Positions 11,019-62,100 of a DNA stretch of 64,000 nt are shown in pieces; the first letter of the stretch is position 1, and every line of letters begins with the position of its first letter. The notes beneath the pieces were generated by a model. That model was not told where the DNA came from. It saw nothing but the letters and a program-made list of their open reading frames with translations, and did no database searches. Made by a program: the position numbers and the translations under genes. Source of the DNA: Halisarca cf. caerulea (taxonomy: Eukaryota; Porifera; Demospongiae; Chondrillida; Halisarcidae); the NCBI GenBank assembly GCA_963170055.1, contig CAUJGJ010000087.1:767501-831500 (forward strand). Direction: 5' to 3'.

Positions 11019-11228
11019 GAGACGAGATATGAGCCTCGTATAAAGAAATTAGGCGGTTGTAAAACTCATCGGAACGAAAATACTGTTGGTTTCCAGAAAG
11101 TCCCCAAAACTACGGCAGGAGCCCCATTTCTATCGTAGCTATGGGGTCCGGGAGCCCCATATCTACGCAAATATAGGGCCGGGGGGCCCCATATTTACGT
11201 AGAATTGGGGACGGGGAGCCCCAAATTC

Positions 11229-11280
11229 AAGGGTCCCCATTTTCACATGACACCGGTGTCATGTGAAAATGGGGACCCTT
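11229..11280. repeat. Perfect centre of the large palindrome
   Basis: Perfect inverted repeat of about 26 bp per arm with no spacer. The axis lies between 11254 and 11255 (CATGACACC|GGTGTCATG), and the near-perfect match then continues outward. The absence of any loop suggests either two elements fused end to end or a hairpin-derived origin. Confidence 0.95.
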
Positions 11281-11456
11281 AAATTTGGGGGCCCCCGTCC
11301 CCAATTCTACGGAGATATGGGGCTCCCGGGCCCCATAGCTACGGTAGAAATAGGGCTCCTGCCGTAGTTTTGGGGACTTTCTAGAAACCAACAGTATCTT
11401 CGTTCCGATGAGTTTTACAACCACGTAATTTCTTTATACGAGGCTCATATCTCGGC

Positions 11457-11720
11457 TCAGTGAAATTTAGAATGCCAATATTGTTTCTGTGCATCTTGTG
11501 GTACGGATTTGATCATGAACAACTTGACGAAAACTGAACGCGTGAAGCTAACTTTAAACGATAGAAAAGAGTTCTTAGAACAGAGATCAACACCAGGAGG
11601 TTCTTCAGTATCCACTATATCAGTAAGTATAACGATAGTCACTAGAATAGCTTGTTCCTTCTCAGCTGAGAGGTAAATAGTAATATTATGATAGGCAGTT
11701 GTTCGTACGAACTCGAGCAC
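11457..11720 (-). CDS. Unrecognised 87-aa ORF in palindrome inner region
   Basis: An open frame (starts MLEFVRTTAYHNITIYLSAE, includes DTEEPPGVDLCSKNSF) in the right arm; the left-arm copy at 10776-11018 is broken. No domain is recognised, and a chance ORF is quite possible. Its start lies close to the shared inner terminal sequence of the element. Confidence 0.2.
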   Translation of the reverse strand: MLEFVRTTAYHNITIYLSAEKEQAILVTIVILTDIVDTEEPPGVDLCSKNSFLSFKVSFTRSVFVKLFMIKSVPQDAQKQYWHSKFH

Positions 11721-11997
11721 ACTCAGGAGTCGACTGAGAGTCCCAATTGCTTACTGGGGTCCTGTTATGAGGTCCCCATCCGTAGTTATAACACATTGCA
11801 TGCATGACATGTTGTATATGGTTTCTATATTGTGGAGTCCCCATACGTAGCTACACAGATTATTATTACTATGTGTGGCCATATGGTGTGGCCATAGTAT
11901 GGTGTGGTGTAATGTTGAGGCCTATTACAAGCATAATATGTTGGGGCCTTATACTGAGTATGGAGTGTGGACATGGGCTCCATGCAAGGTGTGTTAT

Positions 11998-13945
11998 GTT
12001 GAGGGCTTAGCCTGAGTATAGTGTGGGGTCCCCATATTTACGTGTCTCACACACAGCATGCTATGCTGGGGCCCTTTAGTGTGGGGTCCCCATATCTACA
12101 TGTGTCTCACACACAGCATGCTATGCTGGGTCAACATAGTGTGGGGTCCCCATATCTACATGTGTCTTACACACAGCATGCTATGCTGGGTCCCTATAGT
12201 GTGGGGTCCCCATATCTACACGTGTCTCACACACGGCATGCTATGCTGGGGCCCTGTTGTGTGGGGTCCCCATATCTACAAGTGTCTCACACACAGCATG
12301 CTATGCTGGGGCCCTGTTGTGTGGGGTCCCCATATCTACATGGGCTCCTTGCACAGCATGCTATGCTTGGGCCCTGTTGTGTGGGGTCCCCATATCTACA
12401 TGTGTCTCACACATAGCATGCTATACTGGGGCCCTGTTGTGTGGGGTCCCTATATCTACATGGGCTCCATGCACAGCATGCTATGTGGGGCCTTATATTC
12501 AGTATAGTGTGTGGGTTCCCCATATCTATGTACATGTGTCTCACCATAGATACTAGAAGCCTTCTAGTATCTATGGTCTCACACACAGCATGCTATGCTG
12601 GGGCCCTGTTGTGTGGGGTCCCTATATCTACACGGGTCTCACACACAGCATGTTATGTTGGGGCCTTATATTCAGTATAGTGTGTGTGTGTATGGGTCTC
12701 ATGCACAGCATGCTATGTTAGGGGCTTAGACTGAGTATAGTGTATGGGGTCCCCATATCTACGTACACGGGTTTCACACACAGCATGCTATGCTGGGGCC
12801 CTGTTGTGTGGGGTCCCCATATCTACATGGGGTCCATGCCCAGCATGCTATGCTGGGGCCTTATATTCAGTATAGTGTATGGGGTCCCCATATCTACATG
12901 GGGTCCATGCCCAGCATGCTATGCTGGGACCTTATATTCAGTATAGTGTGTGGGGTCCCCGTATCTACACGGGTCTCACACACAGCATGCTATGTTGAGG
13001 GCTTAGACTGAGTATAGTGTGGAGTCCTCATATCTACAAGTGTCTCACACACAGCATGCTATGCTGGGTCCCTATAGTGTGGGGTCCCCATATCTACAAG
13101 TGTCATCACACACAGCATGCTATGCTGGGTCCCTATAGTGTGGGGTCCCCATATCTACATGTGTCTCACACACAGCATGCTATGCTGGGTCCCTATAGTG
13201 TGGGGTCCCCATATCTACACGTGTCTCACACACAGCATGCTATGCTGGGTCCCTATAGTGTGGGGTCCCCATATCTACAAGTGTCTCACACACGGCATGC
13301 TATGCTGGGGCCCTGTTGTGTGGGGTCCCCATATCTACAAGTGTCTCACACACAGTATGCTATGCCGGGGCCCTGTTGTGTGGGGTCCCTATATCTACAT
13401 GGGCTCCATACACAGCATGCTATGTGGGGCCTTATATTCAGTATAGTGTGGGGTCCCCATATCTTCATGGCTCTCACGCATACCATGCTATGTTGGGGGC
13501 TTAGACTGAGTATAGTATGGGGTCCCCATATCTACAAGTGTCTCACACACGGCATGCTATGCTGGGGCCCTGTTGTGTGGGGTCCCCATATCTACAAGTG
13601 TCTCACACACAGTATGCTATGCCGGGGCCCTGTTGTGTGGGGTCCCTATATCTACATGGGCTCCATACACAGCATGCTATGTGGGGCCTTATATTCAGTA
13701 TAGTGTGGGGTCCCCATATCTTCATGGCTCTCACGCATACCATGCTATGTTGGGGGCTTAGACTGAGTATAGTATGGGGTCCCCATATCTGTGCATGCTA
13801 TCACATGGCCATGGGTCTCACATACATGTTAACCTGGAACTCGATAGTGAGGGATCCCCATATCTACAGTACATGGGTTTCACACACAGCATGCTATGCT
13901 GGGGCCTATACTGAGTATAGTGTGGGGTCCCCACATCTACATGCC
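11998..13945. repeat. Tandem array of a ~60-bp unit, right arm
   Basis: Inverted counterpart of the left array. Between 12060 and 12420 the unit period is exactly 60 bp (ends ...CACACAGCATG, contains GTGGGGTCCCCATATCTACA). A block of about 257 bp at 13259-13516 is repeated at 13517-13773, showing higher-order duplication. One unit is interrupted at 12544-12576 by a 33-bp hairpin insertion. Reading frames through the array are repetitive and probably not translated. Confidence 0.95.
12544..12576. mobile_element. 33-bp perfect micro-hairpin insertion with 5-bp duplication
   Basis: CCATAGATACTAGAAG, one C, then its exact reverse complement. It splits a 60-bp repeat unit, whose flanking TCTCA (12539-12543) is duplicated at 12577-12581. 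Neighbouring units show the uninterrupted site, so an insertion is directly visible. Confidence 0.75.
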
Positions 13946-14228
13946 ATCAGTGAAAGTTAGTATGTACTTATTGCCACATGGCATTAACTTTCTGGAAGTA
14001 TACGTAGAGTAATAATATCCTTTCCTAGGTGATCCCATCATGATGGTATAGCTGACCATATCATTATGACACTGGAACTACTTTGTCTGATGGACTCAAG
14101 GCATTGGTTGATACTACATGCAGTATACATGTGCAGCAGTTGGGTTATAGTGTCAGCCATCATACTGTAGAGCATAAGTTCTTTTCAAAATCTATCATAT
14201 CATGGACTATGAAGGTACGGACATGTGT

Positions 14229-22201: not shown

Positions 22202-23244
22202 GGTAATATGAGATATCTGCCTCCCTTCCATCTGTTTGCTATTCGCCCCATTATCAGGGGCATAGGATCACTCACACAAGTGAGGGGGCGGAAGATTTTA
22301 ATGGAGCATTGGACAACATATTAAATACATGTAGGTATTTGGCTCCTACTAACTGCTGCAATAACTGTCAATGGTATGGTGCATGGTTAGTGAGCTTACA
22401 ACACAATTCAGTATACAGTGCATTGGATCAATGATAGGGTTTTTACTTGTGTTGCAATCAATTGTGTATGTGCTACTATTATAATAATACCTCCTGTCAG
22501 AAAATCACCTTTGCATGTCTGGACCGCATCCAGACAAAGGAGGCAAATTCAATGGAGAGTGCAGTGAAGTCTTTGTGAAAAAAAGATAGCTTGAGCCACA
22601 GTTAAGTGACCCTTTGTAAAGGTGTCACTATTATGGAGGGCTTAAATGCGTGTCAATACAAGGCATCCATGCAGGGGTGCAGCTAAGAACATTCACACCA
22701 GTGAGAAGCCAGATGAATTTACGTATGATATATATACAGTGCATATAACAACAACATGTAGACATATGTATGATATCAGGACCCTATATGAATATTTGCT
22801 GATAATGAGGGGCCAAGACCCCCTGGTTCCTACACCTATACAAGGGATGTCAAATGAGGCAGATTTAAGATGTCCTGCATGCATGATTGTGCAAGTAGCT
22901 ATAGATGTTTGCACTCTTGGATGTGTCCTTGAACTTAGCTTAGCAATATACTGTACTCGGTTGGGAGAAGCTCCAGGATAAGCAGGAAGATGTTTTTAAT
23001 TATAAGTCGATATCTGCCAAGGAAAGACACTTTCCTGTCTCTATCCAACAGCTAAGGTAAAATCTATCATTTTCGCCTTAATACCAAAAGCAAGGACTAA
23101 TACAAACATTAATGGTCCCTTAATTGCCACAAAAGTTGTCAAACGCTATCAAAATGGCTCAAGATGCCACCTAATATAAATTACAAACTCGAATTTTCCC
23201 AAGGGGAGCATACCCACAGTCCCCCTCATGTTATAAACCATTAC

Positions 23245-23413
23245 CAGGGGTGTACAAATGCTCATACAAGTGAGGGTGACGAAAGATTCTAGATGAAGCA
23301 TTTATACAATGTCATAATTTAATATGTTAAACACATGCATGATTTTGGGTCCTTCTCCCTATAGGCGAGGGGGGCATGGGCCCCTTGACCCCCTTGGTTA
23401 CTAGACCAATGCC
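23245..23413. mobile_element. Short TIR element (CAGGGG family)
   Basis: Counterpart of the copy at 2043-2207 in the duplicated segment, with the same order of CAGGGGTGTA..., ACAAGTGAGGGTGACG and a C/G-rich 3' end. Confidence 0.6.
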
Positions 23414-23508
23414 TACAATACCGCATTGCATGTGTTCATAGGCAACTAGGGTAATATGAGATATCTGCCCCCTTCCATCTGTTTACTATCGACCCCATAA
23501 TTATTATT

Positions 23509-23667
23509 AGAGGCATAGCAACACTCACACAAGTGAGGGGGGCAGAAGATTTTTGATGGAGAACTATACAACAGTATATTAGACACATGTACTAGGTATT
23601 TGGCTCCTACTAACTAAAGGTGATGGGGTCAGGGCCTCTCTGGCCCCTATATGGTTCTATGCCTATG
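23509..23667. mobile_element. Short TIR element (CAGGGG family)
   Basis: Counterpart of 2300-2452. Carries ACTCACACAAGTGAGGGGGG and ends GGTTCTATGCCTATG. Confidence 0.6.
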
Positions 23668-23988
23668 AATAATAATATCGATTCTGAAATAATAATATAT
23701 GCATAAAAAATTACTACTACCATGCACGTCTCACATGGCCGGCAAGCACCATAATATTTAAACTTCCTGCAAAAAAGTATCCTAGGTAAAACCCTGACCA
23801 TGCCAATCAGTAAGATAATAATAACACTGAGTACAAAGTATTATATGTAATCATTGACAACAAAAGGTAACAAAAATTAAGTGAGCAGTGTAATACACAG
23901 CAAACACACACTGCTGCTTCCTCTTTAAATGTTGACGAAACAAAACGCCATATATTATGCATGCCATTGGAGACACTTTAAAACCAAT

Positions 23989-26316
23989 TTAATTCATCAT
24001 GTCATATGCTGGATTGTCAGTTATTGCAATATCCTCATAAACTCTTTGAGTGTTGTCTCCTTCGTATACACTGACAAGGTCTCTTTCTTGTGATGAGTTC
24101 ATATGACCATAGGCTGGGTTTTCAGTCATTGCAATGTCTTCATTGATCTTGTGTCCTTGAGTACTATCCTGCATGGCTGCAGACTTTGATAGAGAACTGC
24201 TTGGAGATTTGTCACTGCACTTGTAGCAGTGTCTTGTTACTAAGACTGCAACAGTTATACTGATGAGGTTGATCAGCAGCAGGACACCAGAAACACCTGT
24301 CATACCAACAATGAAGTATCCTTTACTAACTGTATCAATGGTTGGACCTGCAATGACCAAATTGACAAGAAAGGAACTACTCATGCCCCTCAAGCTAGAA
24401 TACTTGGCCAAGTGGAAACAATTTATCTCCTTTGCACTGCTATAGCTGCTATAGCTACACTGCACACAATGTTATTGTGACCTTCTGAGCATTGACATGC
24501 AGTTAGTTATCAATTATTATGCTACTTACTATTGTTAGGTATGGTACACAAACTGGCCATTGGTGCTATAGCCTTGACTGCATGACCTCAAAGCACATTC
24601 CTAATACTACCCAGGTGCCACTTCTGATGTACGTATGACACGTTCGGGAGATAAATTGATTTTAAAATTAAATGTGCTATTTAAAACATACCTCCCCTGT
24701 CACAGTATTCCGTTCGCCGCATTAAAGTGTTGAACTGGAGAATGTTGTACTGTCCATTGTTGAAAGGTAAAACAGTGCTAGCAGTGCAGGTGGTACAGTC
24801 TGGTACAGAGGTGGAGCTGGTGGACCCAACAGAAGTGGTCAAGTAGTAGGTGGAATTGGTACCACAGGTGACAGTGGTCTGACAGGAGGACACACTGAGA
24901 GGGCCAACACAGGTATCCATACAACCAAAGGTAATATTTGCACCTGTTGTCATGGACACAGCAGCTTTAACAGCTACACAGAGGGAGTAGTGGGAGCAGA
25001 CACATTCATTGTAAAAATACAGAACTACTCCATATTTGGTGATAGTAATGGTTGCATACTTTTATCTCTGGTCACCATCCTGCCTCCTGAGAGTCCATTA
25101 AACGGCTGTACAGTCACTGTATACGTGTTACCATGGGTGAGACCATCAAAGTAAGCCAAATAGATTCCTTCTCCCGTGATAGGTACTCTCTTTGTCTGGG
25201 ATCGTCCGCTGAAAGAGAAAACAATTGTACTTGCCAAAGCGTTCATATTATCGGCTAAGTACTAATGAGAAAGGAGATGTTACGAGTAAAAATAAAATAG
25301 ATACTGTGAGAATTTCACGCTATGTGGTATAACTATATGCATGTGAACTGGTGTACACAAACTATTAAATAATACATACTAACGAATCATTGGAATAAAC
25401 TTTCAATGCAAACTCTTTTTGACGCACAAGAATTAATTGCTTTGTATACAATGACAAAATTAATGTTTTACGCATTCACATTTGTACCTGCACAAACACT
25501 GTGACTGCTGGATTTGCTCCTCCATTGGAACACACAGACACAAAGTCATCCTCCCACAGGGGTCCAGTTGTGTACACCACTCCACAGTTGCTACTGCACC
25601 CAACCACATTACAAGCTGCAATACTGATGTTGTACTCTGTCAGTGGCTGGAGTCCAGTGAATGTGAAGGATGTATCTGTTGTACATGTGTTCTCTGTTCC
25701 ATTGACACCATCAATAGCAGGATCAGTGGTGATTTGGTACTGTATTGTAGACAACAGTCCAGTAGGTACCCAGGAGAGGGATATGGTAGAGTCTGTGGTC
25801 CCATTCAGTGTAACATTTGGACATGGAGGTAGGCCTAGTGTGGACAAAACCAGCAAATCACTCATATTTAAGTGGTACGTTTAGCCAAACGAACACATTG
25901 GTCATGTTGAAGTTATGTACAAGTTTAATCTAATGGTTCTGCACTCAACAGTACTTCCATGGGAGATAAATGCAAATTAAAAACAACAACTATACATACA
26001 TACATACACATGCAGCAGTGCTTACCTTCAACATATATCGTTGCTACATCAATTATATTACCATCAGCACCATCTTTGCATGTTACAGTAGTATTAGAGT
26101 CTCCCAACATGGCATTGAGGATGTTTATATTTGATGGATTAACTAGATTGGAAGTAACTTCAGTTTCGATTCTTGGTTGAGCATTGGCCAAAGTAAGGGC
26201 TCCACTGGCTGTTGTTTGACCTATCAGCTCAACCACCCAGTCTAAGGCTTGAACACTTGGAGTGGCATTGCATACAAATGTCATATTCTGTCCCGTGGTG
26301 GGATCAACTGTCTTGC
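23989..26316 (-). CDS. Paralogous Ig/FN3 receptor, 5'-truncated (gene B)
   Basis: Five exons parallel gene A: 26316-26026 (Ig part), 25834-25488, 25195-25060, 24973-24692 and 24347-23989. All reading frames are open, and exons 2-5 match the corresponding gene A exons in length and phase. The product keeps Ig cysteines (MTFVCNAT, TTVTCKDG), both FN3 parts, the Cys/Thr-rich stalk, the membrane segment (GYFIVGMTGVSGVLLLINL) and the tail motifs NPAY (twice) and YEDI. No signal-peptide exon is found upstream. Homology to gene A ends near 26333 and LINE fragments follow. An acceptor CCCCAG|GC in the correct phase could still be spliced to a distant first exon. It may be a functional paralogue with a new 5' end, or a recent pseudogene that has not yet decayed. 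Confidence 0.72.
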
Positions 26317-28043: not shown

Positions 28044-31000
28044 ATGGGTCTGTGTACGAAGCAAAAATGCTACAAGTGTATCAGATCATGTTGTTTCTTG
28101 GTCTGTGGGTCCTTCTTGATACTGCTGGCGATAACAGTGGCAAGTGATTCGGGAAAAAGAACTATAAGACTATTCCGCGAAGGAATTGATTGCAGTGATG
28201 CTGAAAGTTTGGCTTACCTGAGAGAAGTGGTACGTGCAGTTTGGTACAAGTTGTACTTATACTTTTATTGCATTGTCCTGCTTTAATATTAGGGAATATG
28301 TCACTGCCTATTATTCACTATGGCTTTTCATATTAATATATTTAGCTTACTTCCCAGTTGTTTATTTAGACACTTATACTTCAATGGGACAGTGCCTTTT
28401 CTAAAGAAATCACATCGAGGATAATAAGGGGTATTATGGGACAGTGGATATTATGAGACACATTCACCGAACCTGATAGTATGCAGTAGTTGTAGGTTCG
28501 GTGAATGTCTCTCATAATATCTGCCGTCCCATAACCCCCCGATTAGTCTAAGTGAAAACTTTCTAATCCGGCTAATTCTCAATGGAACTTCAAAAATTGT
28601 TGAATTATGAGGTTGTCAGACTACAGAGTAACTATTAGCATACTTTAGTATTATGGTGATTGTATCCTATAAGATGATCAGATTGGTACATGTCAGATTA
28701 TATAGAGGTTACATTACATTTGGCTGGAGTGTGGCTTGAGCATCTGTGGTCGGAGTATCAGAGATGACAGGCAGTGGAGCACCTCTGATTCAGACCCGTG
28801 AATTGCAGACACCTCTCTAACATGGACACATGCCACCTAAACCCACTAATTGACTACACTTTTCCAAACTCCATCTTCAACCCCCGAAATGAGGACTACA
28901 AAATATAATATTTCATCTCAAATCTAACTAAAGACATCTGTTGAGAAGTAGTTCCTACACACTTCCTGTAGTACTGTGAAACTTCTACACTGAACCATTT
29001 GTAATCTAGAACCTTCTCTATGATTGATGTATTTTCAAGTTCTGGTCATTATACAATAGACCTGTCATGCGGTATTTGGCCCCCTGCCATATTGGTTCCG
29101 CCGGGCCTAAAATGGCAGATAACGTGGGTGCCAAAAATGGTTCCACCCTGCTGAAAATGGCCCCCCTTGGAATTAGCAGAAAATGCATGAGCAATTGCCA
29201 TGAACAAAATGATCGAAACAGGAAGAAATTGAACAAACTCGAAAGCTATTTGGAGTGATAATGTCTGAAGCTAAGGACGAAGATCGAACTGAAGAAGTCA
29301 AAGTGATTCAGTACGTAGGTGCTTGCTCTCGAGGCACTGCTTGCCGCTATCCAGCAGAGGGAAGCTCCAAGAACTCACTAGAGAGCATAAAAGATCTTCA
29401 TCGACGATGGTTGATTATGTATCAAAAGTAGAGCAATTCGTCAATCCAGTGTACAACAATTGGATTCTTGCTGTGTGCTAGTCTGACATAGCCAGACTCG
29501 TCCAGAAAATGGCAGCACATACATACGTAGCAAGAATCTGTGCTTGTTTAACTTCTACACTGAAAGATTGAACAATCCTCATGTCCATACAGGAAGATGA
29601 AACTGATGGCATTTACCATGTGTAAAGTGTACTGCATGGATTCATATTACCTACATTACCACAATTTACTGCTTTGGAGAATATTTACCGTATAGCTAGA
29701 AATGTTAGCGGACAAAAAATTTTTGTGGATGGTCTTCCAATCGCAAAAATTATAATTTGCGAAATTTGCCGGTACATTTCGCTTTTATTATTCTACACCC
29801 AGCTCTCAGACCCTTTCCGCCAATGCCATTTTTCGTTGCATGAGACTCTCACACTTGTTCGGTGGTTTGCTGCTTTGCCACAGTGTTGTTCATTCAGTTC
29901 ATTCGCTTCAAGCCTATTGTTCAGTTCCGTATTCGTTCGATTCATTTCCTGCTAAACCTCTTGCAAGCTGTTCGTACGTTGAGTTGTATGTCGACTCTTT
30001 TCAAGTATTTCAAACTATAGAGTGGCCCTGCCGTGGAGGACTCGAAAGTACATTACATGACACAAGTTTCTTATGCTAATCTGACTGTGGCCGTGTTCGT
30101 CCTTCAGTAACACAAAAATGCCCACTCTTGGCTGCCAACAATGAGGTAAACAGCAATGGCAGGAACAAGGCGTCAATGGACTCACTTCCCCCGTCCCCTG
30201 TCTTTCATAGTTGTGTTGTATCAGAAATACTAATTTACTATCTATGGCTGTACAGTTGTGAGCCGAGGAAACAGCAGTCAGGAGAGTGAACATGGTGTCG
30301 ATCAGTAACAGGCCTAGGGCTGCCGCCGAGGCAAGTAAAAAAAAGGCATGCACGTACAAACAAATTTTAATCAGTTCTAAGCTTTTACTGCTGCAGTATT
30401 CCTGTGCTAAATCCCTGCCCCATGCACTGTTTCACACATTATGTACACACAACCACACAAAGCCCACAGTGGGCAGCAGCCACCATGCAGTGAAGGCCTA
30501 TCGTGAAGCAATGGGCTGTTTATCAATCGTCTTTATGCCTCTACCAGTGTCTCAGGCTCGCCCCTATGATGATAATCATCTGCCTAGTATCATATGTAAT
30601 CATGTTTCCTTTTTGCCAATTCTCAATCACACATCTTTGCGCTTTCAGTGCTATATGCATGCTTAGAAGTTGTCATTTATTATATCGATGGTTCAGGAAT
30701 TATATAATAATCATCCTTGTAAGAGTTAGTGTGTGCGTGTACGTTACATGATGTGATCATTTGTATGTCATTTCCTGTAGTGCTCCAATTATTCAAAAGG
30801 GTTGGTCCCAGGTTCATTCTGCAAAAGCATGTGTTCTGAAATGGTTCAATACAGCAAGTGTTTGGGACATGGAGTGTCACCGCATGTTCTTCTAGTGAAG
30901 TACAAAGGCAAGGACGTAGTACTGAAAACCAAAGAAACATACAAAAATTATTTTGTTAGACATAGAATGCCTGAGGTAGAATACCTACAGGATAAGCATG

Positions 31001-32049: not shown

Positions 32050-32745
32050 CTGTGTTTCACTCAAATGAAAGTCTATTTTCATATTATATGATTTAAATTT
32101 CATATTTGTCTATTTATTGTCTATGGATGATGTAGCTTTTACTCAGCAATGTTTTTTATTTCTATTTTCTCCAATTTATATTATATTAAACTTGCAGTAA
32201 TATTATTCATGCTTTGCAATTGTAATGCAGCACATGCAGCTGCTGCAAAATTTGAAAGCATGTTTGTACATGCATACATATATTCAATCATCTTGTGCAT
32301 ATATATGCATATATAATATATTGAAATGCATGACGTATACGTATGTGCACATGGTGACATATTCCTTGGTACCGTAGCTTAAGCTTAATGATTCGTATTT
32401 TTATGGCAATTATAAGCTGTAATGACCTCTACAGTACAGATTTGCTACTTGTAGGGCATATAGGTGATATTGTTCCAGTGATTTTTATTGGATACACTGG
32501 ACCCAAGGGGTGGTTTTGAAGCTCAAGTGTTTCTTATGTTTATAAAATAAAACGGAATGTAAGGATAACTGCTAATTTCACTAGAAAAACACTGATTCAG
32601 AAACAAGATAGAGATGTTTGCTGTACAGGGCCGCTCTAGCTGTTCACAGTATGTGTTCCTTGTTCCTCAGCTAACCAAGATGTTCATTTTCTCACACTAG
32701 TGATACTAATTTTCACAGAGTGTCTGTAATTTAAGGAGTATCCTA

Positions 32746-48764: not shown

Positions 48765-48965
48765 ATTGACCAAAGGGATTTTCCCCGAAGCGTGTTGCCG
48801 ACGTAAGTGATCCCTAGTCACGCGTCGCCAGCCCCTTTCCCTTAACGCCCCGCCTCTCGCAGGGGTGTTAAAGGGGCTGGCGACGCGAGACTAAGTGATC
48901 CCCATCTCAAAATTTATAACACTCGATCTCGACACTTTTATTCTTTATAATTACGGCAGTCTTAT
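48765..48965. promoter_or_regulatory. Bidirectional promoter of U2AF1 and TBCC
   Basis: Only 201 bp separate the U2AF1 start codon (48764, minus) from the TBCC start codon (48966, plus). The region is locally GC-rich compared with its surroundings and has no coding content. It is mostly occupied by a 79-bp hairpin element at 48815-48893. Shared promoter function is inferred from the spacing. Confidence 0.75.
48815..48893. mobile_element. TAGTC-family MITE in U2AF1/TBCC promoter
   Basis: Inverted ends TAGTCACGCGTCGCCAGCCC and GGGCTGGCGACGCGAGACTA (one mismatch), flanked by perfect 9-bp direct repeats AGTGATCCC at 48806-48814 and 48894-48902. The duplication length fits Mutator- or Merlin-like elements. 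There is no coding capacity. Confidence 0.88.
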
Positions 48966-51024
48966 ATGGAGCCGCCAAAACTGCCCGGAAAAAATGATTC
49001 TGGAGCTGTGGATTCGGATTCAAGAATTAAACTTGATGAAAAATTTTGGAAGAACTTTAGACACAGATTTGGAGGTACAGTAAACCGCGCAGTTAACTGA
49101 ATGTTGTATGCAGTTGAGCATTACTAAGTTTTAAGCAGGTCTGCATCTAACTATAGGTTCTCATGTAGTTAATGACATATATATCTGAGTGTACAGTATG
49201 ACACGTATGTATATGTTCAATTCAACAGTAATTATAGTGCACCATGCCCTCGACCATGCCTGAAGAATGGGCACCAGGCACAGTGTGCATGTGGTCCCAT
49301 GTACAGATATTACACATGTACGTACATGATACATAGTACATCATCATGAGTGCAGCTCAGAATTTCGCATACTACGTATGAGTATAGGACAGTATCTAAT
49401 ATGTAGTACATTATATGCACGTACGTATGTACATATGTATATAATATAAAAATATAATGAATATTTGACTGAACAACTTACGTACATGTAGAGAGTGCTT
49501 TTAAATTAATGCAATTTGTGAATCTCAGTTTTTTTGCTAACTGATTGTAGGTTGTACCTTGGTTAGGTTTGGGTTCTAGGACCGTTAGTGAACATGGAGT
49601 TACCCAGTAACCTTCTGACGTGTAATTTTGATGAGACAGCAATATGTTAATATAGAGTTGACCGTTTATGGTACTATTTGTGAAAAATGTTCAATTCATT
49701 TATAGTAGATTTTTATTTATATCATGCAAATTTAGACGGGCCATATGAACTCAAGGAGATTTGTAGATTTTTGCTTAGCATTGCATGCAGGCAGTCTTAT
49801 AGTCTGATGTTTCACTGAATTTGAGTGTTCCTATTGCATTTTGCATAAAAGTTTGACACAGAAACATTATACCAGTAGTAGAATATGTAGCTTGCACTTA
49901 TTTGTCTGTGTATTCAATAATTATATTTCTGAATGAGTGCACCTTGGAATGGAGCAATTATGTGCGTATTTTAAATGTTGGTGATACGCATATACACATT
50001 TCTGATGTGCCTAGTGAGTTATGCTTTGACCTGACCTAACTTGTACAATATTGGCTGCATGTAAGCACTATGTTATGTTTCTTCGTTTAAGTTTAATATC
50101 TTCCACTTTGTATACTTCTGCAGAGATCGAAGCTGAAATATCACATTTGAGTAGCAATGATGATAGCCTAAGGGCACATTTAGACACACTTAAGAGGTCT
50201 TGCCAAGCACTGCAGCAGGAAGTCACTGATGCTACTCTGTATTTGCCGAAGTATAGTTTGAAAAGGGCACAGGAAGTGAGTGCGCTGGTCCAGAATATTC
50301 ACTATAATATTATACCCATTTTTCCTTGTTATGTATAATGTGTTTGTTCAGCAATTGTCTCAACTACGAACTTTGCTATCTACAAGGGAGGATGAATTGG
50401 CTCCAAAGAAAAAGTTTTCATTCTCCTCTCGGAAGAAAGAGGCTAATGTGGATGGTGTAGTAGCACCAACACCTGCTGTAAAATCTAGCTTCAAACCCCT
50501 CTCATCAGTTGATGGAAAATCTACCGTTGGATTTTGTAATGTGACAAATGAAACATTGAAACTTACTGATGATACTATCAGGCATTGTGATGTTGAATTA
50601 AGTGATCTTAATGACTGCATCGTGCACATTCAAGGATCGCCACCAAGTGTTCATATCAGTCATTTATCCAATACAAAGTATGCAGCATGTTGATGTTTAT
50701 GCATATGCAGTATATGTATTTTGATGTGTTCATAAATTCATAATGCTTAATGTTTATACATTTTAGAGTACTTTTAGGTCCTTGTCAGTTCTCTGTCTTC
50801 ATTGATGATTGCCGAGACTGTCACTTTTCCATTGCCTGCCAACAGGTTTGTGTTGTGTGCATGACAGAATGTACTTTCTAGTTCTACTGTTTTCTGCTTA
50901 TCATGTGTGAATTCAGTATGTAGTTTTGTGGCTACTATTATGCTCCTACATACGTAATTGATTTTTATGAATTATACTTATACGTATGATTATAGCATGC
51001 ATGTAAATGGGATGTACAAGCATG

Positions 51025-51079
<55 letters not shown>

Positions 51080-53742
51080 TGCGCGTGTATGTGTACATGC
51101 GTATTGTGCTTTGACCTTAGCCTCACATTCCTGCCCTATTTCGCCACACTTTGTGTGGCATGGGGGCTGGCACGTGAGACTACTTTGACCTCTGGTGTAC
51201 ATATGTATTTTTTTCAATTTGTGCATGTCATTATGTTGCACATTGAAACGAGCTAGCAAACAATTTTACACCCAGTATGTACATATAATGTATGTACGTA
51301 TGTACAGCTGAGTTCTCCCCAGAAAACAAAGTAGAATGATACAAAGCCTAAACTAGAATATTGACTGATTGATTGATTGATCTTATTTAGACAGAATATT
51401 GCAAATCTTCTGTGACTGTCTAGTTTTGCTACAATGTACTGTACTGACATGCACAAAGGGAAAAAATACATAAATATGTACACAAGAGGTCAAAGTAGTC
51501 TTGCGTGCCAGCCCCCATGTGGCACTAAGTACCAATATTTAAGAGAACCAGCAGTAGGAATCAAAAGTCTTATTAATAATAACACCACATACATGACTTG
51601 TAATACACAAACTGTCCAACCTGGACACCACCCTAAATAGGGACACATACAGTGTACCAGGTTACAGGATGTGGCATGTCAATGTATACCGTAGGATGGG
51701 TTTTAATCGCTAGATTGAAATAAATGCTGATTGCTAGCTAATTGCAAAAACACATTATAACCAACTATAGCCCGGCCTATATGAAGTTATGTAAGGAAAC
51801 ACAATTATTAAAAATGTGCATTCCCTTAAATGCAATTGTTGCAATACGCAATTAAATTAAACCCATCCTACGGTATATACCAGCTGCCAACATCTCATAC
51901 ATAATGGGCTATAGCCATGGGTACTAGGCTACAACAGGCTCATATTAACTTCCTTCCAATGTGCTTCAGTTGAAATGATGTTATATAGTGGCCTTCATTA
52001 TGGCAAATTTCAGGTCTTGAAAATGTCTACTGAACGTTTTACCTAATATTTGATAATTTAATCTTAAATAGAGACATCATCATCATCAGATCTCTCATGG
52101 TGATTATATCGATGTACGTATCTCCTAAATCTTTTTCTTTTTCTTATCCATATGCATGGTGAAAAGAATAGTGGGGTGCTGTGCCACGCTAAAGGATACA
52201 GTATGTACATGACATTGTGCATTACATTTTGTGCATGTTTGTCATTTTACCTATCTATATGTATATTTGTACCTGTATATTTGGATAGATTTTTTTTTGA
52301 TTTTTGTGTGATTATGGTATAGAATCGACAAGTTGTGAAGTGTATTTTTTCATGCATTTTGTGATATTAGTGCAAAGTTGCATTTCTTAGAGTCGTATTT
52401 ACTTAATTTATTATATTCTGTATCAGATATATACATAAATATGCTAGTGCCACCTAAATTGCATACTTGACAATTGCATATACATATGGGATCAAATTTA
52501 AAAGTATATACATTGCAGGACATGAAATATGCCAATCTTATGGTTACATAGTGTGTGCTGAAGACTCTGTAACTAACTGTGTAAGATTTTAAGTATGTAT
52601 GTATTGTTGTTTTGTAGCTGAGAATACACAAAAGTATTCACTGTGTATTCAGCATCCATGTGACAAGTGCAGCTATTATTGAAGACTGCTCTGGAGTTGC
52701 CTTTGCCCCCTACAACTACAAGTATGAGCACTTACAGGATCATTTCCAGGTACTAGCAGTGGGAATGGGTAATTGTGTGCTCCATAGATGGTGCTTTGCT
52801 TCTTTCTGAAATCTCTTTTCTTGCATGCAACACTGCAGCAGTGACAAATGGTTAATATGTCTTAATGCACCTAACTGCTTACTATATGGCAGATTATTTA
52901 GTATGCCAAAATGGATAATAGGCCAGAATTTTGTGAAACCAATTGCAGTTCTGCTGTTTACTCTGTTCTCATGTTGCAAGAATGTACATACATTTTTTTT
53001 ATTCATTACATCATAGATGTCTTTTTTCATTATTTATCCATTTGTTTTTTTGTATCTTGTTTCCTGGGTACCTATGATAGTAGCCATTGGCTAAAGACTC
53101 TCATAAATAAATAATATACTTAATCTAGTTACCTAACTTATGGTACTTGCATATGTACACTATTATGGAGTATGGTAGCATTCTGTGTGCAGGATTGACT
53201 CTGAAAGACCATACCTGCTGTACATTAGCACTAGTTTTTTTTTTTTTTTTCCAAAGCTAACAACACATGTATGTCAACAGAGAATTCAAAAGTTATTAGA
53301 TACGTATACACTACGTATTTGGAAAATGTCTTTGGTTGCTTCCCTTTTATGTATACAGTACATATATATAGCCAGATGGCATTGAGGAGCAATGACTTAG
53401 GTAATTGATGGATATTTGTGTATATAGATGACAGGTATGAGGTGGAGATGTTTTTCTTTGAATCATTAGATTGTTTCTCTGCATTTTTTCCGATTCTTTT
53501 TGGACACTTTGTGTAAAGCCTACATCTATATACCTAGTTCCTTCAAGCCACAGTTTATTATTCCTGAACCATGCTGCATATTTTCCATTATTTTCTTTTC
53601 TTGCTCCGGATCTAAGCGATCTCAATTAGATTCTACAACTAACAATTGGGACAAGGTGGAAGATTTCAATTGGCTTAGTAAAAATCCATCTCCAAATTGG
53701 TCTATCCTTCCTGTTGCAGAAAGGTCTATTGAGGAATACTGA
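48966..53742 (+). CDS. TBCC: Tubulin-binding cofactor C
   Basis: Six exons: 48966-49074, 50124-50275, 50352-50677, 50767-50845, 52618-52749 and 53617-53742 (924 nt, 307 aa). TBCC triggers GTP hydrolysis in the tubulin-cofactor D/E complex and releases folded αβ-tubulin. The N-terminal part is helical (KLDEKFWKNFRHRFGG, SLRAHLDTLKRSCQALQQEV), as in the spectrin-like domain. PKKKFSFSSRKK follows, matching the linker PKKRFAF. The C-terminal β-helix (C-CAP/CARP) domain has IDDCRDCHFSIACQQLRIH, with R224 in the position of the GAP arginine finger (QQLRIH). IIEDCSGVAFAPYNYKY comes next. The end, NNWDKVEDFNWLSKNPSPNW, is strongly conserved. The last acceptor (GATCTAAG|CGATCT) is weak, but phase and alignment support it. 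Confidence 0.95.
51028..51076. repeat. (GT)n microsatellite in TBCC intron
   Basis: GT dinucleotide run in TBCC intron 4, directly followed by a TAGTC-family MITE at 51118. Confidence 0.95.
51118..51182. mobile_element. 65-bp TAGTC-family MITE in TBCC intron 4
   Basis: Ends TAGCCTCACATTCCTGCCC and GGGCTGGCACGTGAGACTA, flanked by perfect 9-bp direct repeats CTTTGACCT (51109-51117, 51183-51191). Its right half plus flank is present again inverted at about 51440-51526 (AGGTCAAAGTAGTCTTGCGT). Confidence 0.85.
51689..51873. mobile_element. 185-bp MITE with TA duplication in TBCC intron 4
   Basis: Inverted ends CCGTAGGATGGGTTTTAAT and ATTAAACCCATCCTACGG, flanked by TA. The end motif CCGTA and TA target resemble the element at 35034-35249, suggesting a shared transposase source. 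Confidence 0.8.
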
Positions 53743-53964
53743 CATCTAGCTTTTATTACGGTGTTATTTGTGTATGTATGCGTGTGATTTATGTATTATC
53801 ATGACATGTCTGTATACGTACTTATTGTGAAGCTTAAGTGTGCTAATCTTGCATTATCGTGCACATAGCGTTGCTTCCACGTAGGGATTGGGGATTGATA
53901 TTGGTATATCACATGCAATTATCATTATAATTGCACAGTACTCAAATCCCAGCTGAAAAATATA

Positions 53965-56370
53965 AAGCATGTACATACAGTGCAAGTGTAATAACCCCAA
54001 GTATTAGTACATATTAGTACCTATGTATGTGATGATGTTGTCTCAGTTACCAAACAATCGAATGTGTACAACATTTGTGGATCCCAACAGGCTTAGTGCT
54101 TTAGTCACATGTCAATTAATTGGGCTGAACAAGTATCAGGGGGTAAGACTCATTGGCATTGGTAAAACATTGATGCAATCATTGCCCGAGCAGTTATGTC
54201 AGTACTGGAGAAAGATATTAGAAATTCTGCTAGACCATTGCAGCCTGCGCTGGGCACAAAGCAGGTTGTGAGGCAGCCATCCATGTATGAATGACATCTT
54301 GACCTCCCCTACCAATGAAGCAGTTGCATGGTTGACGCCACCAATACTTTTAACTGCCTAAACATGCAGGCAAACAGCTATAAGAAACATTTCCAAGCTG
54401 TGTCCTAGCTCTACCCTGCAGTGATACTCATCAACACATACAGATCAGATACCCCGATATATACATAGGAGGTGAAACTATATATTATATAATTTTAACA
54501 ATTAAGGTACCACACAAGATCCGCTTGTGATGGCCATGTACACTGTTGGGATAGCCCCTCTCATATAGCCCGGCTTAGAGAGACTCAAGTTCGTCAGGTA
54601 TAGTGTATGCAGACAATACCTCAACGATCTGCCTCTTCACTTTTAAGGGATTGCATGCATGGTGGGATCATCTCACCAACTTGTGGCCAGACCATGGTTA
54701 ATTCTGTACATGAAGACGTGGTTGATTGTCAAAGAAGGCTTGTATACAGAAGCAGCCAGCACATTCCAGGGTACTGTGGTGCAACTGCATGAGGGTAGAA
54801 GATTTCTTGGTGGTGCTCTTGGTTATACGGATCCTTGCATGTACGCATGACTGATGATCAAAGACAATAATAATATTATGATAATATAATCGAGATTGCA
54901 GGGTTCTGACTACACTGGTTGGAGACTGGTGGTTGCATGGGTCCAACCATGCATGCAGCAAAATTCATGGCCAATTCAAGACCAGAGGATTTGAAATCAC
55001 AGCTAGTGATAAGATCCTTTCTCCAAATCTGTTTTTCGTGATTGAAACACTTCATTAGCCACATGTTTAGTCCGAGTACCTTGAAAAAATTAAAGCCTTC
55101 GAACATTGATCATGATGTATTTAGTTGGAAGGTACATATAGAAGTACGTGGATCTTCAAACATGTGTTAGCTGTGAATTGCAATTGACCTAAGCTTGATT
55201 ATGTATACCACCTTGGAAGACTACCCAGGCTGAACCCTGTGATTGAGATCTACGTAAAGCTAATATTGACAATTGCAAGCTGTACGTAGCCATAGACAAT
55301 CTATATATATAATGTTACATAGTATAAAGTGTCTATGCGATATAGATCAGTGTGCATGTGCAGAGTGTGTCATGCATGCATACATCATGCCTGCATGTGG
55401 AACATGCAGGCAATATTCAATGCTAGCCTCTTTATCCCATACAAATATATATACACCCTGCATATGGGATATGTTGCCAAGCTTTTGGGAAAGTTGTATA
55501 TACATACGTACGTGTAGTAGACCAATCTCTATAGCACTGGATCTGGAGAGCTACATACATACACATTATGGAAGCAATCCCATGCAATCATACTGTAACA
55601 AGAATTTACAAAAACATGCAAGCCGAACTATTTTTGATGAAACATGAACAAATCATACCTGAAGAATAAAACTATGTACAATAGTTCATGTACATAGTAT
55701 GTACATGCACATGCATGGGTGTATAATATTGTCTGTTTCAATTTGACATTACACGTAAAATACTGAACATGAGATAATGCAGTATGCATGCTACAGCCTC
55801 CATTACAGTCTCAGACGTATTACTGTGAGTATGGTAACAACTTCACTGAAGAAAGGGACCACACTGTAAGGGAGACAGTTAAGACACATTTCACAATGAT
55901 GGCAATGGATACAATGTTCCACTGAATTATCCAGCAGCAGAACAATACTATTGCTGTTTAGGACATCTACAATGTGCAGTACAAATTACAAAATACACTA
56001 ATGTATCACATAAGGATACTACAGACATTCCATGAATATTAGTATCACTAGTGTGAGAAAATGAACATCTTGGTTAGCTGAGGAACAAGGAACACATATA
56101 CTGTGAACAGCTAGAGCAGCCCTGTACAGCAAACATCCCTATCTTGTTTCTGAATCAGTGTTTTTCTAGTGAAATCAGCAGTTATCCTTACATTCCGTTT
56201 TATTTTATAAACATAAGAAACACTTGAGCTTCAAAACCACCCCTTGCGTCCAGTGTATCCAATAAAAATCACTGGAACAATATCACCTATATGCCCTACA
56301 AGTAGCAAATCTGTACTGTAGAGGTCATTACAGCTTTTAATTGCCTTTAAAATATGAATCATTAAGCTAA
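53965..56370. repeat. Inverted duplication, right copy (partner 32380-35500)
   Basis: Inverted copy lacking the two MITE-type insertions of the left copy. It lies between TBCC and the 3' end of TMEM107. Together the two copies bracket about 18.5 kb containing three genes. No coding content is recognised. Confidence 0.9.
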
Positions 56371-56628
56371 ACGAGCTAAAATTAAGGCTCATATGTGGTG
56401 CAACGGTTTTCATTGTATGGTCAGGCTATCCCATACAACAAATAACTTTAAAAATACACAATATACTGTATTCTCTCTAAAATTGTCATCCCTATTACTG
56501 TAGATGCAATTTTTTTCACGGGTTTAAAGATCTGTATGTTGAAGTACATTTGCAATCTACTCATTTGTGTTGTAAAACTTCTACATACATAATAGCAACA
56601 AATGACTCCTAATTTTTGCGATCACAAC

Positions 56629-58857
56629 CTAACTCACAAAAATACCATCCTCGCAAAAAACTGCATCTATGGTATAGTGCTTCAAAACTCCACTTTTGGC
56701 ATTGAAGTAGAACACAATAGCTGACTGTAACAAAATTTGAAATTTTCTGATGTAAATGATAGAGAACATAACATTAGAAAACACTTTTGAATCATTGAAA
56801 CACTTTTGAATGTTTGCTTTCAGCGATGGTATGGCAGTTTGACTGGCATTGGTTACTGTGATAAGGTGAGGATGCCAAAAGTCTGTAGAGAATACCACGA
56901 GGAAGAATGACGTCCAGCTGAAGAAGCTACACATCTTTCTTCCTTGTGTTAAGAAGTCAAAATCTTATGAGAAGAAATACACCATTATGACCAAACAATA
57001 TTAGAATGACACACACAAAGTTACAATGGCAGGACATTCCTCGCAGCTTGAGTGTAAGCAAATCTAAACAAAAAGCCTGACAAACACAGAATGATATTTA
57101 AAGTTTCAGAGATAATACAGTACTTCACATTACAATGCAAATTGTAATGATATTGCTACAAATCATGTATCACTTTGGAATAAGATCATTCCCAGGTATT
57201 CCATACTACATACAGTACACGGCTATTATGCACACTTAATAAATCATACCTTCCAAAGGCAAAAATATACCAGAAAGTATCGCACTGCCACATTAATGTC
57301 CAGTAGAGACATAAGCACACTGATGCTGATACATGAAGGAAAGTAGCTTGATTGCCAGTTAAGAAAGCAATGCAAAATATCAAACATCAACTTTGTCCTG
57401 CTGATATCTTGTGACCGTAATATTATGGTATACATGCATACATACAAATACACCGACACACACACATAATACTGTATATTATCATGCCATTATGTTCCGT
57501 GATCTGGTGAAAAGATGTGTTAGTTGCGTTTCACCATGCTAAAACATGTAGGTAATGATTAGGATACAGAGTAAACCAGGCAGGTCCACAAACATAGACA
57601 ATCCAGAGAGATGACCAAAGAGCTCACAGGTCAACAAAAACAAAGAAAATGTAAAGCCAACGATTAACCTACACATAAGAAGGGATAAAATACAATGATT
57701 AGTTACATGTAATACACAAACATGAATACATACATTTGTGAGCAGTTTGCTTAAATAAAATCCAAAAAGAGTGTCTCAAAATTAATATGCCAGAAACTAG
57801 TGCAGAGTAACATAAACAGTGAATTTATGAGAAGTGATCATGATGATTAACAGAAAGAAGGTATGGTTATGAGCTGCATGGGAGGTCCCCAGTAGCAAGT
57901 ATGGTTGGACCACAGACATTCTATATATTATACTACATAAAAAAGCATATCCAGAAATATTGGTGACATCTTTAATTTGGCGGTTTGGCAATCAGGATCA
58001 AAATCGCTAAATTTCTACCACCAAATTTACATAGACCTACTTACTATGCTTTGCCCTTGCTGTGCAACTGCCGAATTTAATTTTCACCAATATTAAATTA
58101 CAGCCCAATCTTGTGCAAATCTCCAAATTTAATGATTGCCAATATATCCGGATATACGGTTTTACTTTTGAACATCATAACAACAATGATAAAAAGTGTA
58201 TGATTATTAATATTGTATCTACATTAGATTAGGCTTTGCATAGAATGTCTGGCTGGATAACATAACTGCCACCACCACCACCAACAAACATTGAAGACTT
58301 CTCCTACATCATCATAGAATTCTTCTCCCCATCTTTTTTGTGACATACAACAGTAAAATACCCAAGGTAACCACATGCATAGACACTCGAGCTCACTCTG
58401 TGTTCTTCTGAGATGACAGTGATTCTTCATTAACATTGCTCGATGTACAGTTATTGATAATGGTATCCTGTAAAGACAGTTGCATGTGTCAATATTACAA
58501 CTCCTCGCCTTCTCTTACACATGCATTTGTGTGCACATACATCTGTGATGTGGTGTAATGATCTAGAGCACAGACAATCCTACCACAGTTGTAAACTCAC
58601 AAAGTTTCACCACACCTATTAAGGTTATTATTAAATTCTAGCATCCATAATTGTTACTCTATAATTATCACTTGTACTCATGATCAGAAACCAATGCAGT
58701 ACTACTATACTATTACGATGTGCTACATACTGGTCCATTGACATTCCTACATCCAGTGCTACAATATACCTACCTTGGACCAAAACAAAACGATAATGAT
58801 AACAAGATGTGCTATCAAAGACAGAAAGCGAGCGGGAATGATCAGCCGCGAATGCAT
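56629..58857 (-). CDS. TMEM107: TMEM107, ciliary transition-zone membrane protein
   Basis: Exons 58857-58774, 58467-58397, 57668-57568, 57346-57250 and 56926 down to a stop at 56629 are phase-consistent. TMEM107 is a four-pass protein of the MKS module at the ciliary transition zone. The start MHSRLIIPARFLSLIAHLVI followed by IIVLFWSK matches the family opening (PSRFLTLLAHLVV..LFWS). ELFGHLSGLSMF matches ELAGFLSGVSMF, and HVSASVCLCLYWTLMWQCDT with FWYIFAFG matches HCSASVALSFF...W.CTTYWYIF. The last exon begins SFFSWTSFFLVVFSTDFW, which fits helix 4, but its open frame continues for ~80 residues beyond the usual end. A missed intron or wrong 3' exon is therefore possible. The gene is divergent from the OS-9-like gene. 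Confidence 0.87.
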
Positions 58858-58891
58858 TTGCAAATGCTAGCGCTCACAGCACAATAGCACA

Positions 58892-58952
58892 TAGTCTTGT
58901 GGGCCAGACTCAAACGATCTCCTGGAAGATAGGGTCTGGCAACGCGAGACTA
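58892..58952. mobile_element. 61-bp TAGTC-family MITE in promoter
   Basis: Ends TAGTCTTGTGGGCCAGACTC and GGGTCTGGCAACGCGAGACTA (last 20 shown by motif CTGGCAACGCGAGACTA). No clear 9-bp flanking duplication remains, so it is older or was rearranged. Confidence 0.65.
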
Positions 58953-58988
58953 GGCAGGCTACGAACATGGCTGATCGCAACATGGCGG

Positions 58989-59114
58989 TAGTCTCGCGTC
59001 GCACAGACCCTATTCTCGCCTCCATTTTTTTTATTATGACGTCACACGGCCGACCGTGTGACGTCATAATAAAAAAAATGGAGGCGAGAATAGGGTCTGT
59101 GCGACGCGAGACTA
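58989..59114. mobile_element. 126-bp perfect-palindrome MITE with two CRE-type sites
   Basis: Two identical 61-bp arms around the 4-bp centre CCGA. The ends are TAGTCTCGCGTCGCACAGAC and its complement. Each arm holds TGACGTCA, the consensus CREB/ATF site. It is flanked by perfect 9-bp repeats ACATGGCGG (58980-58988 and 59115-59123). The right repeat contains the start codon of the OS-9-like gene and the left repeat an in-frame upstream ATG. Confidence 0.93.
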
Positions 59115-59116
59115 AC

Positions 59117-62100
59117 ATGGCGGGTCTCGCAGTATCTATGATGGCAGTCGCCCCTTTTCTTCTGTTGCAGCTGATGTTATGGATGCCGGCAGAAGCATCT
59201 AGTGAAAGTTTAGAGTCATACGATGACGCACAACACTTTCATATACTTTGGAAAAGTAGTGAGAAGATGGAGAATGTGAGTTTGTGCGTGGGTTTGCGTG
59301 TTCTTATATTCGCCAAAAAATTGGGTTTTGAATGGCATGTATATTTAACCATAATCTGAATCGATGTACGTGTACTAGAACAACATATTATGTGACCTAT
59401 ACAAGTGTGAAAAGTATTGGCTATTACAGTAACACTAGTGCTGCCATAGATCTTCTAACAAATGAGATTTTCATACCTAGACCATAGACTCTATACCATC
59501 CTTAGTCCCGCGTAGCCAGACCCATGCTCGCCTCCATTTTTCAAATGTGACGTCACCGTCTCTCCCGTTTCTGTTTTTCTCTCGCCTTTCCAGTGACATC
59601 AGTCACGACGAGCATGGGTCTGGCTACGTGGGACTATAGCATCCTAGATATATCTATGATACCATGTAACTGTAGTATAGAGAGTCCATGCCTAGGCCAA
59701 GATAAACTTGAGTGAGATTTGTCTCCATCATGAATGAGATTGACCTCCTGGGAGTGAGGCATACCACTGTAAATACATGTTTATGACAAGCAGTCTCAAG
59801 TCATGCATGATAATAGTCTAGCTTGCCAGACCCTTTTGCCACCAATCCATTTTCATGAAGGTAGGGTTGCCCCTTAGTGAGAAGGGATTGGCAGCGGAAG
59901 GGTCTGGTATGCAAGACTGGCATGATTCTATGCATCAAGGTTATTGTATTCATCATCCTCTATTTATCAACAAATGAGGTAGTGAGATACAAAAAAGAAG
60001 CCTCAGACACAGGGTGAAATGCAAATAAATTTAAAGGATGGATGGATATTACTAATGGATATGGTGTGGTAGTTGAGGTGTGTAGAGCAAACAAAGTGCT
60101 ACGTATATGCAAGGGCAAAGACCAAAAAATGAAGTGGAATACTGAAGACAAATGTAATCAGAAGTGACAATGGGCTGGATGCTACGATAATACGAATGTT
60201 ACACATGTACTCTACAAATTATTGTTAATATTGCACAAATACGTATGTCTGTATTGGATGGAACATGCTAGTCAATGAAGCATGTTAGTCACTAAGGAAT
60301 ATTCGCTTTTGTACCAGGACATGTGACATTGGATCTAATGGGACAAAGGCCAATAATCTTGTATTTACGTATACAATATAATGTTAGGGTAGTAGTATTG
60401 GCAAGTGACATGCTCAGAATTTACTAATGTTCAAATTTTATGGTGAAGAAATGACTGGGTAAATGATTTCTGCTGTTAGATTTCATGAAATGCTCATTAC
60501 AAAGCAAGCAATACAGTGAGAAGTTTTGTTTATATTTGTAATTTTGTACATGGTATGGTGGCCATGTTTTTCCGTGTCAATCCTACATATAGAGTAATAC
60601 TGTACTCCATGATGGGCAAGCTATAGAATGTGGTAGAACAAGAACTAAAGAAACTATTGTTGTAGAAATTCTTTGACATTCCAGATCAATTTGGAAATGT
60701 ATTGTCTTTAATCAGATAGTACATGTCTCTGTCAGCAATCATTTCAATTGTACAATGTTTTGCCCACTTGGACTTCTTCATGGTATATACACAAACTATA
60801 ACTGATTGAACGCTGTAAATGAGTATGTACGTACGTAAGTGTATGGAATATTAACTGATAAGGTCAAGAAACATGTACGTATGATACCTATCTGATCAAG
60901 GGATCCCACAAGTGACACAGAGTTATCTATGTATCAAGGTTGCAGTTCTCCTTCATCCTGATGTACAGGATGTCTTTGATCCTCCTCTGCTCCATATTAT
61001 TGATTCTGGCACTCTCCCAATCTACCAGGTATTCTATACTGTGTGTCTGTTGTCTGCTTAGTTCTATGCATAGCATTGGCATTCTTCCTATCCTTTTTCT
61101 TCATCACACGGATGTTCCTTCAATCTCACTATGAATGGTCTATAAGTTTCCCGAATTTTGACTGGTCACAGTTACCACAGGGGATCTGATAACCAATTCT
61201 CTTGTCTACATACCTGTGTCTGCTTTTTGAAACGAGTGAGTACTGTATGTAAAGTTGTCATATGTATGTCTGAACACAGCTCTCACTCCTTTGCATATGC
61301 AAATTTTGGCCAGTCTCTTCAACATTCCCCTAAAGAAAGGCACGTAGTGTACAGAGTGGTGTTCTTATTCTGTCATCTCTATCATTTTCTCTCTTCTTGG
61401 TGTTGTGTGTCATTGATACTCTTCACAATCACCCTTCAATTGCTTTTCCGGGATGACCATTCTTGAGAAATACGTATGTACTGCTTGTACGTAGGTGTTT
61501 GCTCCCTCATTGGTCATATGGTTCCTGGTTATGCTAAGCTTCGCTGTGACCACTCTCGCTGTACGTGGTGGAAGTGTTGCTATCTACTGTGCTGATCATC
61601 TGTCCTACTCTGTCCTGTCTTCTGGTACTTCTGCTCCCAGTGTTGGGTTATTGTGGCTCTCCATTACTTCCCAAGTCTACATAAGTCCATAAATTCTCCT
61701 TTTGCCCTTGGTTCTTCCTATCGGCCTCCCAACTTGCCCTCCCATGATCTTTGTAACAACATTAAATTGATGATGACCCCCAGAAGTTTGTCACTGCTTC
61801 TGATGATTTCAGCATTGACATGGCCGGCACAAACAAACCTCATTCAAAACTTCATGACTTTCTGACCTCTCACTCCCTCCTACAAGTCATTAGTCTTCCT
61901 ATCCATTTTTCTGTCACCACTAACTCTGTTTGGACCTCTTCATTGCTTCTTTTGACTTGCCCATTTCCAAGTCTTCTGTTCTTGACTCTTCCATCTCTGA
62001 CCATCTACATACCAGTTCTACTTGACATTGACTACAGTGTCCCCAAGCCTCCTCCATCCTTCGTCACTCATCAATCCTTTAAAAACTTTTCAGAAGCCAG

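Follow-up and report, generated by a model that had tools for sequence, protein, structure and literature searches.

Why do members of one family of short inverted-repeat elements occupy two divergent promoters of a single stretch of sponge DNA? The stretch, here called the window, comprises 64,000 nucleotides of Halisarca cf. caerulea (C83:767501-831500), and the genome searched amounts to 194,469,755 bp in 454 contigs. The elements, delimited by TAGTC...GACTA, are miniature inverted-repeat transposable elements (MITEs). An earlier note on the window had placed six of them, had claimed perfect or near-perfect 9-bp target duplications for four, and had suggested promoter targeting or retention for regulatory use. 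Reading and sequence checks found all six in place, with duplications of 9/9 at 48815, 51118 and 58989 and of 8/9 at 59503. Some also carry TGACGTCA, the CREB/ATF-type palindrome.

48815-48893, no strand: MITE copy, 79 bp; AGTGATCCC duplicated 9/9 at 48806-48814 and 48894-48902; U2AF1/TBCC gap; without TGACGTCA
51118-51182, no strand: MITE copy, 65 bp; CTTTGACCT duplicated 9/9; TBCC intron according to the exon model
58892-58952, no strand: older MITE copy, 61 bp; flanks AATAGCACA and GGCAGGCTA agree at 3/9, which is no duplication; TMEM107/ERLEC1 gap
58989-59114, no strand: MITE copy, 126 bp, with perfect 61-bp arms; ACATGGCGG duplicated 9/9; two TGACGTCA; TMEM107/ERLEC1 gap
59503-59636, no strand: MITE copy, 134 bp; TACCATCCT and TAGCATCCT agree at 8/9; one TGACGTCA; first ERLEC1 intron
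59814-59919, no strand: degraded MITE copy, 106 bp; GCATGATAA and GCATGATTC agree at 7/9; right end GACTG; first ERLEC1 intron

The start codons of U2AF1 (48764, minus strand) and TBCC (48966, plus strand) flank the 48815 element; this element and one duplication make up 88 of the 201 bp between them. Those of TMEM107 (58857, minus) and ERLEC1 (59117, plus) flank the 58892 and 58989 elements; elements and one duplication take 196 of the 259 bp between them, and 63 bp remain. One 9-bp-duplicating family is thus present in both of these divergent promoters. Scripted scans pick up three of the six elements (48815, 58989, 59503), and the more degraded 51118, 58892 and 59814 were judged by reading and inverted-repeat comparison. 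A relaxed scan of the window returned six candidates, three belonging to the TAGTC...GACTA family, and ten shuffles returned 0-3 each.

The answer considered likely, with some reserve, is that new copies of this family prefer open, unmethylated DNA, and that compact promoters are hit repeatedly as a result.

Repeated insertion into a duplicated promoter

A second copy of the TMEM107/ERLEC1 promoter, inverted, lies on the same contig at a distance of about 106 kb (C83:933050-934435, 96% over 1386 bp); the aligned pieces of the two copies have identities of 94.5% over 2786 bp, 95.9% over 537 bp and 98.1% over 103 bp. Both copies contain the elements 58892 and 59503. The 58989 element is missing from the second copy, where ACATGGCGG occurs once, as opposed to twice in the window, and where the 15 bp directly preceding the site are also absent. 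The second copy has a private element of its own, 118 bp long (C83:934532-934649) with AGCGCTCAC on each side, and the window promoter has AGCGCTCAC once, the matching empty site. Since each copy holds a private element and the other its empty site, the gap was entered at least three times, once before the duplication and once per copy afterwards. Paralogy is favoured over two haplotypes joined by the assembler, since the copies have diverged and lie in opposite orientation on one contig; if the copies were haplotypes, the private insertions would be polymorphic. The U2AF1/TBCC locus also has a second assembled copy (C126:675-1104, 99%), and no empty site for the 48815 element was found there, this copy being filled as well.

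Repeated entry into one promoter is itself better supported than could be known from the window. The duplicated promoter amounts to a natural experiment: each version gained an insertion of its own after the duplication and has the empty site for that of its counterpart. Insertion preference, and the effect of a hairpin-forming insertion at a start codon, thereby become directly testable in one animal.

The 58989 insertion duplicated ACATGGCGG, which contains the first bases of the ERLEC1 start codon region (ATGGCGG). The start codon itself was duplicated, so the original protein start remains downstream of the element. As a transcript, the 58989 palindrome is predicted to form a hairpin of -123 kcal/mol (-38.8 for shuffles) two bases before the start codon. 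Because so stable a structure would stand there if the palindrome were transcribed, ERLEC1 transcription now probably begins inside or after the element. An ATG at 58967 is in frame and stop-free across the whole element (126+9 is a multiple of three). The frames concerned are:

58967-59119, plus strand: putative open frame that begins at the upstream ATG, crosses the 58989 element and runs into the ERLEC1 start codon, from sequence reading
59117-59274, plus strand: first coding exon of the OS-9-like gene (ERLEC1) from its ATG, exon end by reading

The family, its subfamilies and candidate partners

The end TAGTCTCGCGTNGCCAGACCC has 1371+1352 = 2723 genome matches at up to 3 mismatches and its reversed control 0+1, so the family is not due to chance. 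A sample of 88 copies (28 with intact ends, 40 with decayed ends and 20 bearing TGACGTCA) was compared with 40 shifted controls. Duplications of 8-9 of 9 bp were found in 32 of the 88 copies, 22 of them 9/9, and in 0.6% of random offset pairs, a contrast overstated by a pairing script that rewards duplications. These 32 copies have the consensus end TAGTCTCGCGTAGCCAGACCC and a median length of 80 bp, with varied interiors. A first pairing script left 7/28 intact-end and 17/40 decayed-end copies unpaired; the final comparison keeps all 88, with some forced pairings arbitrary and the flank start moved accordingly (e.g., in L142, where the true element is flanked by a full 9/9 duplication).

Several subfamilies can be distinguished. 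The genome has 37+32 matches to the arm of the 58989 type (control 0), and the copy in L166 shares 97.7% identity with the 58989 element. Preceded by CAGACCC at N15-40, TGACGTCA lies just inside family ends at 295+282 = 577 places (control 1+3) and in several interior types; it is present in both private elements of the duplicated promoter, twice in that of the window and once in the other. It is carried by only 2/68 copies picked via exact ends, a low figure because TGACGTCA-bearing types often have variant ends, and the total family must therefore be larger than the 2723 matches. A coherent subfamily of 737-764 bp is represented by 12 genome places with its inner sequence. Among the five copies read (L080-L084), three have duplications of 9/9 and one of 8/9, and one lies in a TG repeat where none can be judged. 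At L083:35-2353, the 755-bp member ends about 100 bp before a 487-amino-acid open frame with SH3 domains.

The copies are short with terminal inverted repeats, have a fixed 9-bp duplication confirmed by the two reciprocal empty sites, and are numerous. Short copies have no room for a transposase, and the five long members read have no such frame. The family is a non-autonomous 9-bp-duplicating MITE. It is possibly of Mutator type, judging from the length of the duplication, a length not exclusive to Mutator. The exact family end had no match in collections of viral contigs and of genome contigs, and no description of the family was found in titles and abstract beginnings of the openly licensed literature.

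Two candidates for an autonomous partner were rejected. The 737-764 bp members have no frame of at least 120 amino acids in L081-L084 (737-763 bp) and stops throughout the 764-bp member in L080. A copy with reverse-transcriptase-like sequence in L079 (C3:1705448 onward) was taken to hold a nested retrotransposon, the two parts co-occurring only there. Other copies of this retroelement lie near family members, e.g., in L126 and L114.

Transposase domains were also searched. MULE transposase (PF10551) gave 50 genome matches; for 30 of them, examined together with 1.5 kb of sequence to either side, no flanking pair of family ends was found, a single end being present in L021, L024 and L031. None of the 14 PF10551 matches on contigs C1-C66 had a listed family end within 5 kb in lists read by eye, a test that takes in neither variant ends nor larger elements. 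A MULE lineage with its own end TACGGCTAGAGACAGGAACGCC directly adjoins a family MITE in L021 (C179) and L024 (C286), with a likely relic in L027 (C290). The IS1595-type (Merlin) transposase likewise gave 50 matches; one of the 13 on C1-C66 has a family end within 5 kb, its element extending away, and none of these 13 positions lies inside a pair of ends. KDZ transposase gave 12 matches, with 0/2 on C1-C66 near a listed end. An autonomous partner with family ends was thus not found among MULE, Merlin and KDZ transposases, the hAT and P families not being searched.

Location bias and its explanations

The ratio of observed to expected CpG in the flanks, elements masked, served as a proxy for unmethylated, promoter-like DNA, with a cut-off of >0.75. 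This element-anchored measure replaced counts anchored at gene starts, in which even strong targeting would show in too few sampled starts. The window is CpG-poor (0.37), and 400-bp windows at both promoters reach about 0.8-1.1. Mean flank values were 0.56 for intact-end, 0.48 for decayed-end and 0.66 for TGACGTCA-bearing copies (0.55 for all 88) and 0.33 for controls. The cut-off was exceeded by 21/88 copies vs 2/40 controls (p 0.012), namely by 4/28 intact-end (Fisher p 0.22), 8/40 decayed-end (p 0.087) and 9/20 TGACGTCA-bearing copies (p 0.0004). Rank tests against controls gave p 0.0006 for intact-end and p 0.012 for decayed-end copies. An earlier, smaller comparison had 4/28 copies vs 2/20 controls above the cut-off.

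Copies also cluster, a second family end within 320 bp being found for 10/88 copies vs 0/40 controls (p 0.030). In L126 (C1:198694-199493), two members stand in a row and the 9-bp word GTATAAACT occurs three times (278, 369, 451), so one insertion entered the duplication of an earlier copy. Among the first 100 of 435 CpG-tolerant exact ends, counted by hand, both CpGs survive in 24, and one or both are gone from 76. This suggests that most copies were methylated and then decayed. Such decay biases counts of where the elements survive, and counts of clean copies therefore overstate promoters.

Several observations weigh against a general preference for open DNA. Once the TGACGTCA-selected set is removed, 12/68 copies vs 2/40 controls exceed the cut-off (p 0.077), not significant at 0.05, and an intact TGACGTCA itself selects young or unmethylated copies. 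The proxy is imperfect, CpG-rich windows also occurring at repeats, and the 40 control stretches were taken at fixed shifts and do not form a genome-wide null. In half of the 88 copies, decay or mispairing leaves no duplication that convinces. When six CpG-rich loci were read over 2.8-3 kb, one showed a clear gene start, one a probable one and four none. The clear case is L166, where the first ATG of a frame encoding an NYN domain (E 4e-11) follows an element at a distance of 221 bp. The probable one is L168, in which an element flanked by a 9/9 duplication (GGCCTAAAG) precedes an ATG of a proline-rich frame without Pfam match by 68 bp. L169 has frames without Pfam match, presumably reverse-transcriptase-like from their motifs, and L167, L170 and L171 gave no gene evidence.

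With these points counted, preference for open DNA is still the reading adopted. Copies with ends TAGTCTCGCGTAGCCAGACCC insert with a 9-bp target duplication, as the duplications and the two reciprocal empty sites show. New copies would prefer open, unmethylated DNA, gene starts included, often near existing copies, as flank CpG and clustering suggest, and some compact promoters would be struck repeatedly. In methylated DNA copies may lose their CpGs and fade, and promoter copies may stay recognisable, in keeping with the CpG decay. The two promoters of the window would then be extremes of a partial bias, not proof of a promoter-seeking transposase.

A transposase drawn to initiating RNA polymerase II or to a promoter protein, a behaviour on record for maize Mu and the fly P element, would place most fresh insertions at gene starts. 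In favour of such targeting, two gaps of about 200-260 bp hold three of the six copies in the window, one promoter was entered three times independently, TGACGTCA-bearing copies have CpG-rich flanks, and the elements of L166 and L168 lie 221 bp and 68 bp ahead of a gene start or probable gene start. The youngest-looking copies, those with intact ends, nevertheless show no clear difference from controls at the cut-off, and most ends have decayed CpGs; targeting in this strict sense is judged unlikely. The suggestion in the earlier note finds partial support: flank CpG is shifted, but 67/88 copies lie outside CpG-rich flanks. Promoter targeting as a rule is not shown, and the best reading is a partial bias to unmethylated DNA with hot spots. 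A bolder version, in which palindromic TGACGTCA-bearing subfamilies home to and re-enter compact bidirectional promoters and take over initiation as a mobile promoter kit, is thought quite improbable; if it held, the ERLEC1 element would supply a start site directly before the start codon duplicated by its insertion.

Near-random insertion followed by selective retention, with copies carrying TGACGTCA and other motifs kept in promoters for regulation, would fit the 577 places against four in the control, and the motif in both private elements. It is regarded as very unlikely, given that TGACGTCA marks whole subfamilies, also in CpG-poor settings (L128, L132, L144), that the 48815 element is without it, and that two private insertions in the time since the duplication (2-6% divergence) are a fast pace for retention alone. 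A common repeat might also just happen to sit in both gene gaps, the rest being post hoc; the window was indeed chosen after the fact, and the family has thousands of ends. Three of six copies in the gaps (224 bp taken) nevertheless give a binomial probability of ~9e-7, and two of four separate sites ~7e-5, both figures being post hoc. The three entries, the flank CpG shift and the clustering are signs of non-randomness beyond one window, and coincidence is considered highly improbable.

Neighbouring sequences and known systems

The TBCC gene has a Pfam TBCC match and the OS-9-like gene a PRKCSH match; the names U2AF1 and TMEM107 are assumed from N-terminal similarity. The partial TBCC protein has three matches at 90-98%, which look like transcripts from this species or a very near relative, and further matches at ~30 to 53% identity, mostly from animals where named, with the sponge Oscarella lobularis at 42%. 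For the OS-9-like product the sole matching protein found, named ER lectin 1, is 98% identical, truncated at its 5' end and without the 5' part.

51464-51530, minus strand: local repeat, in inverted orientation, of 51148-51214, which covers half of the 51118 element with its flank; from sequence pairing

A separate insertion was ruled out for this last feature, which is an inverted duplicate of half an element plus flank. At 29479-29499, in a CpG-rich stretch, half of a family member may stand alone (TAGTCTGACATAGCCAGACTC, 5 mismatches), the right end being absent. The window further contains large arrays of a ~60-bp repeat in two inverted blocks (8300-14030), a long direct duplication of 89-96% identity at ~21.16 kb spacing (1369-4589 and 22524-25750), and a 278-bp inverted repeat pair, 96% complementary (32379-32656 and 56094-56371), the second inside the duplicated TMEM107 region.

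P elements duplicate 8 bp and have ends different from those of the TAGTC family, which duplicates 9 bp. Merlin/IS1595-type elements duplicate 8-9 bp, a length that the family shares, and IS1595-type transposases occur in the same genome; Merlin ends start GG, unlike TAGTC. Drosophila P and maize Mu are reported to insert at 5' ends of genes, and Pack-MULEs to peak just upstream of start sites (PMC7337890). In Fusarium oxysporum, MITEs are reported in effector gene promoters (PMC3599309). The sponge family resembles these as a small non-autonomous element in gene promoters; the Fusarium elements differ in that their host is a fungus and the genes are of another class, the comparison being by description, not by element ends. 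Mutator-like MITEs and Pack-MULEs have in common with the family 9-bp duplications and numerous small members whose ends agree and whose interiors vary; they differ in that no transposase with family ends was found here and that the location bias of the family is partial. A Mutator-type element with such placement would be no surprise in kind, given the maize Mu and Pack-MULE record (PMC7337890); what is notable is that a single duplicated promoter of an animal received insertions repeatedly and reciprocally.

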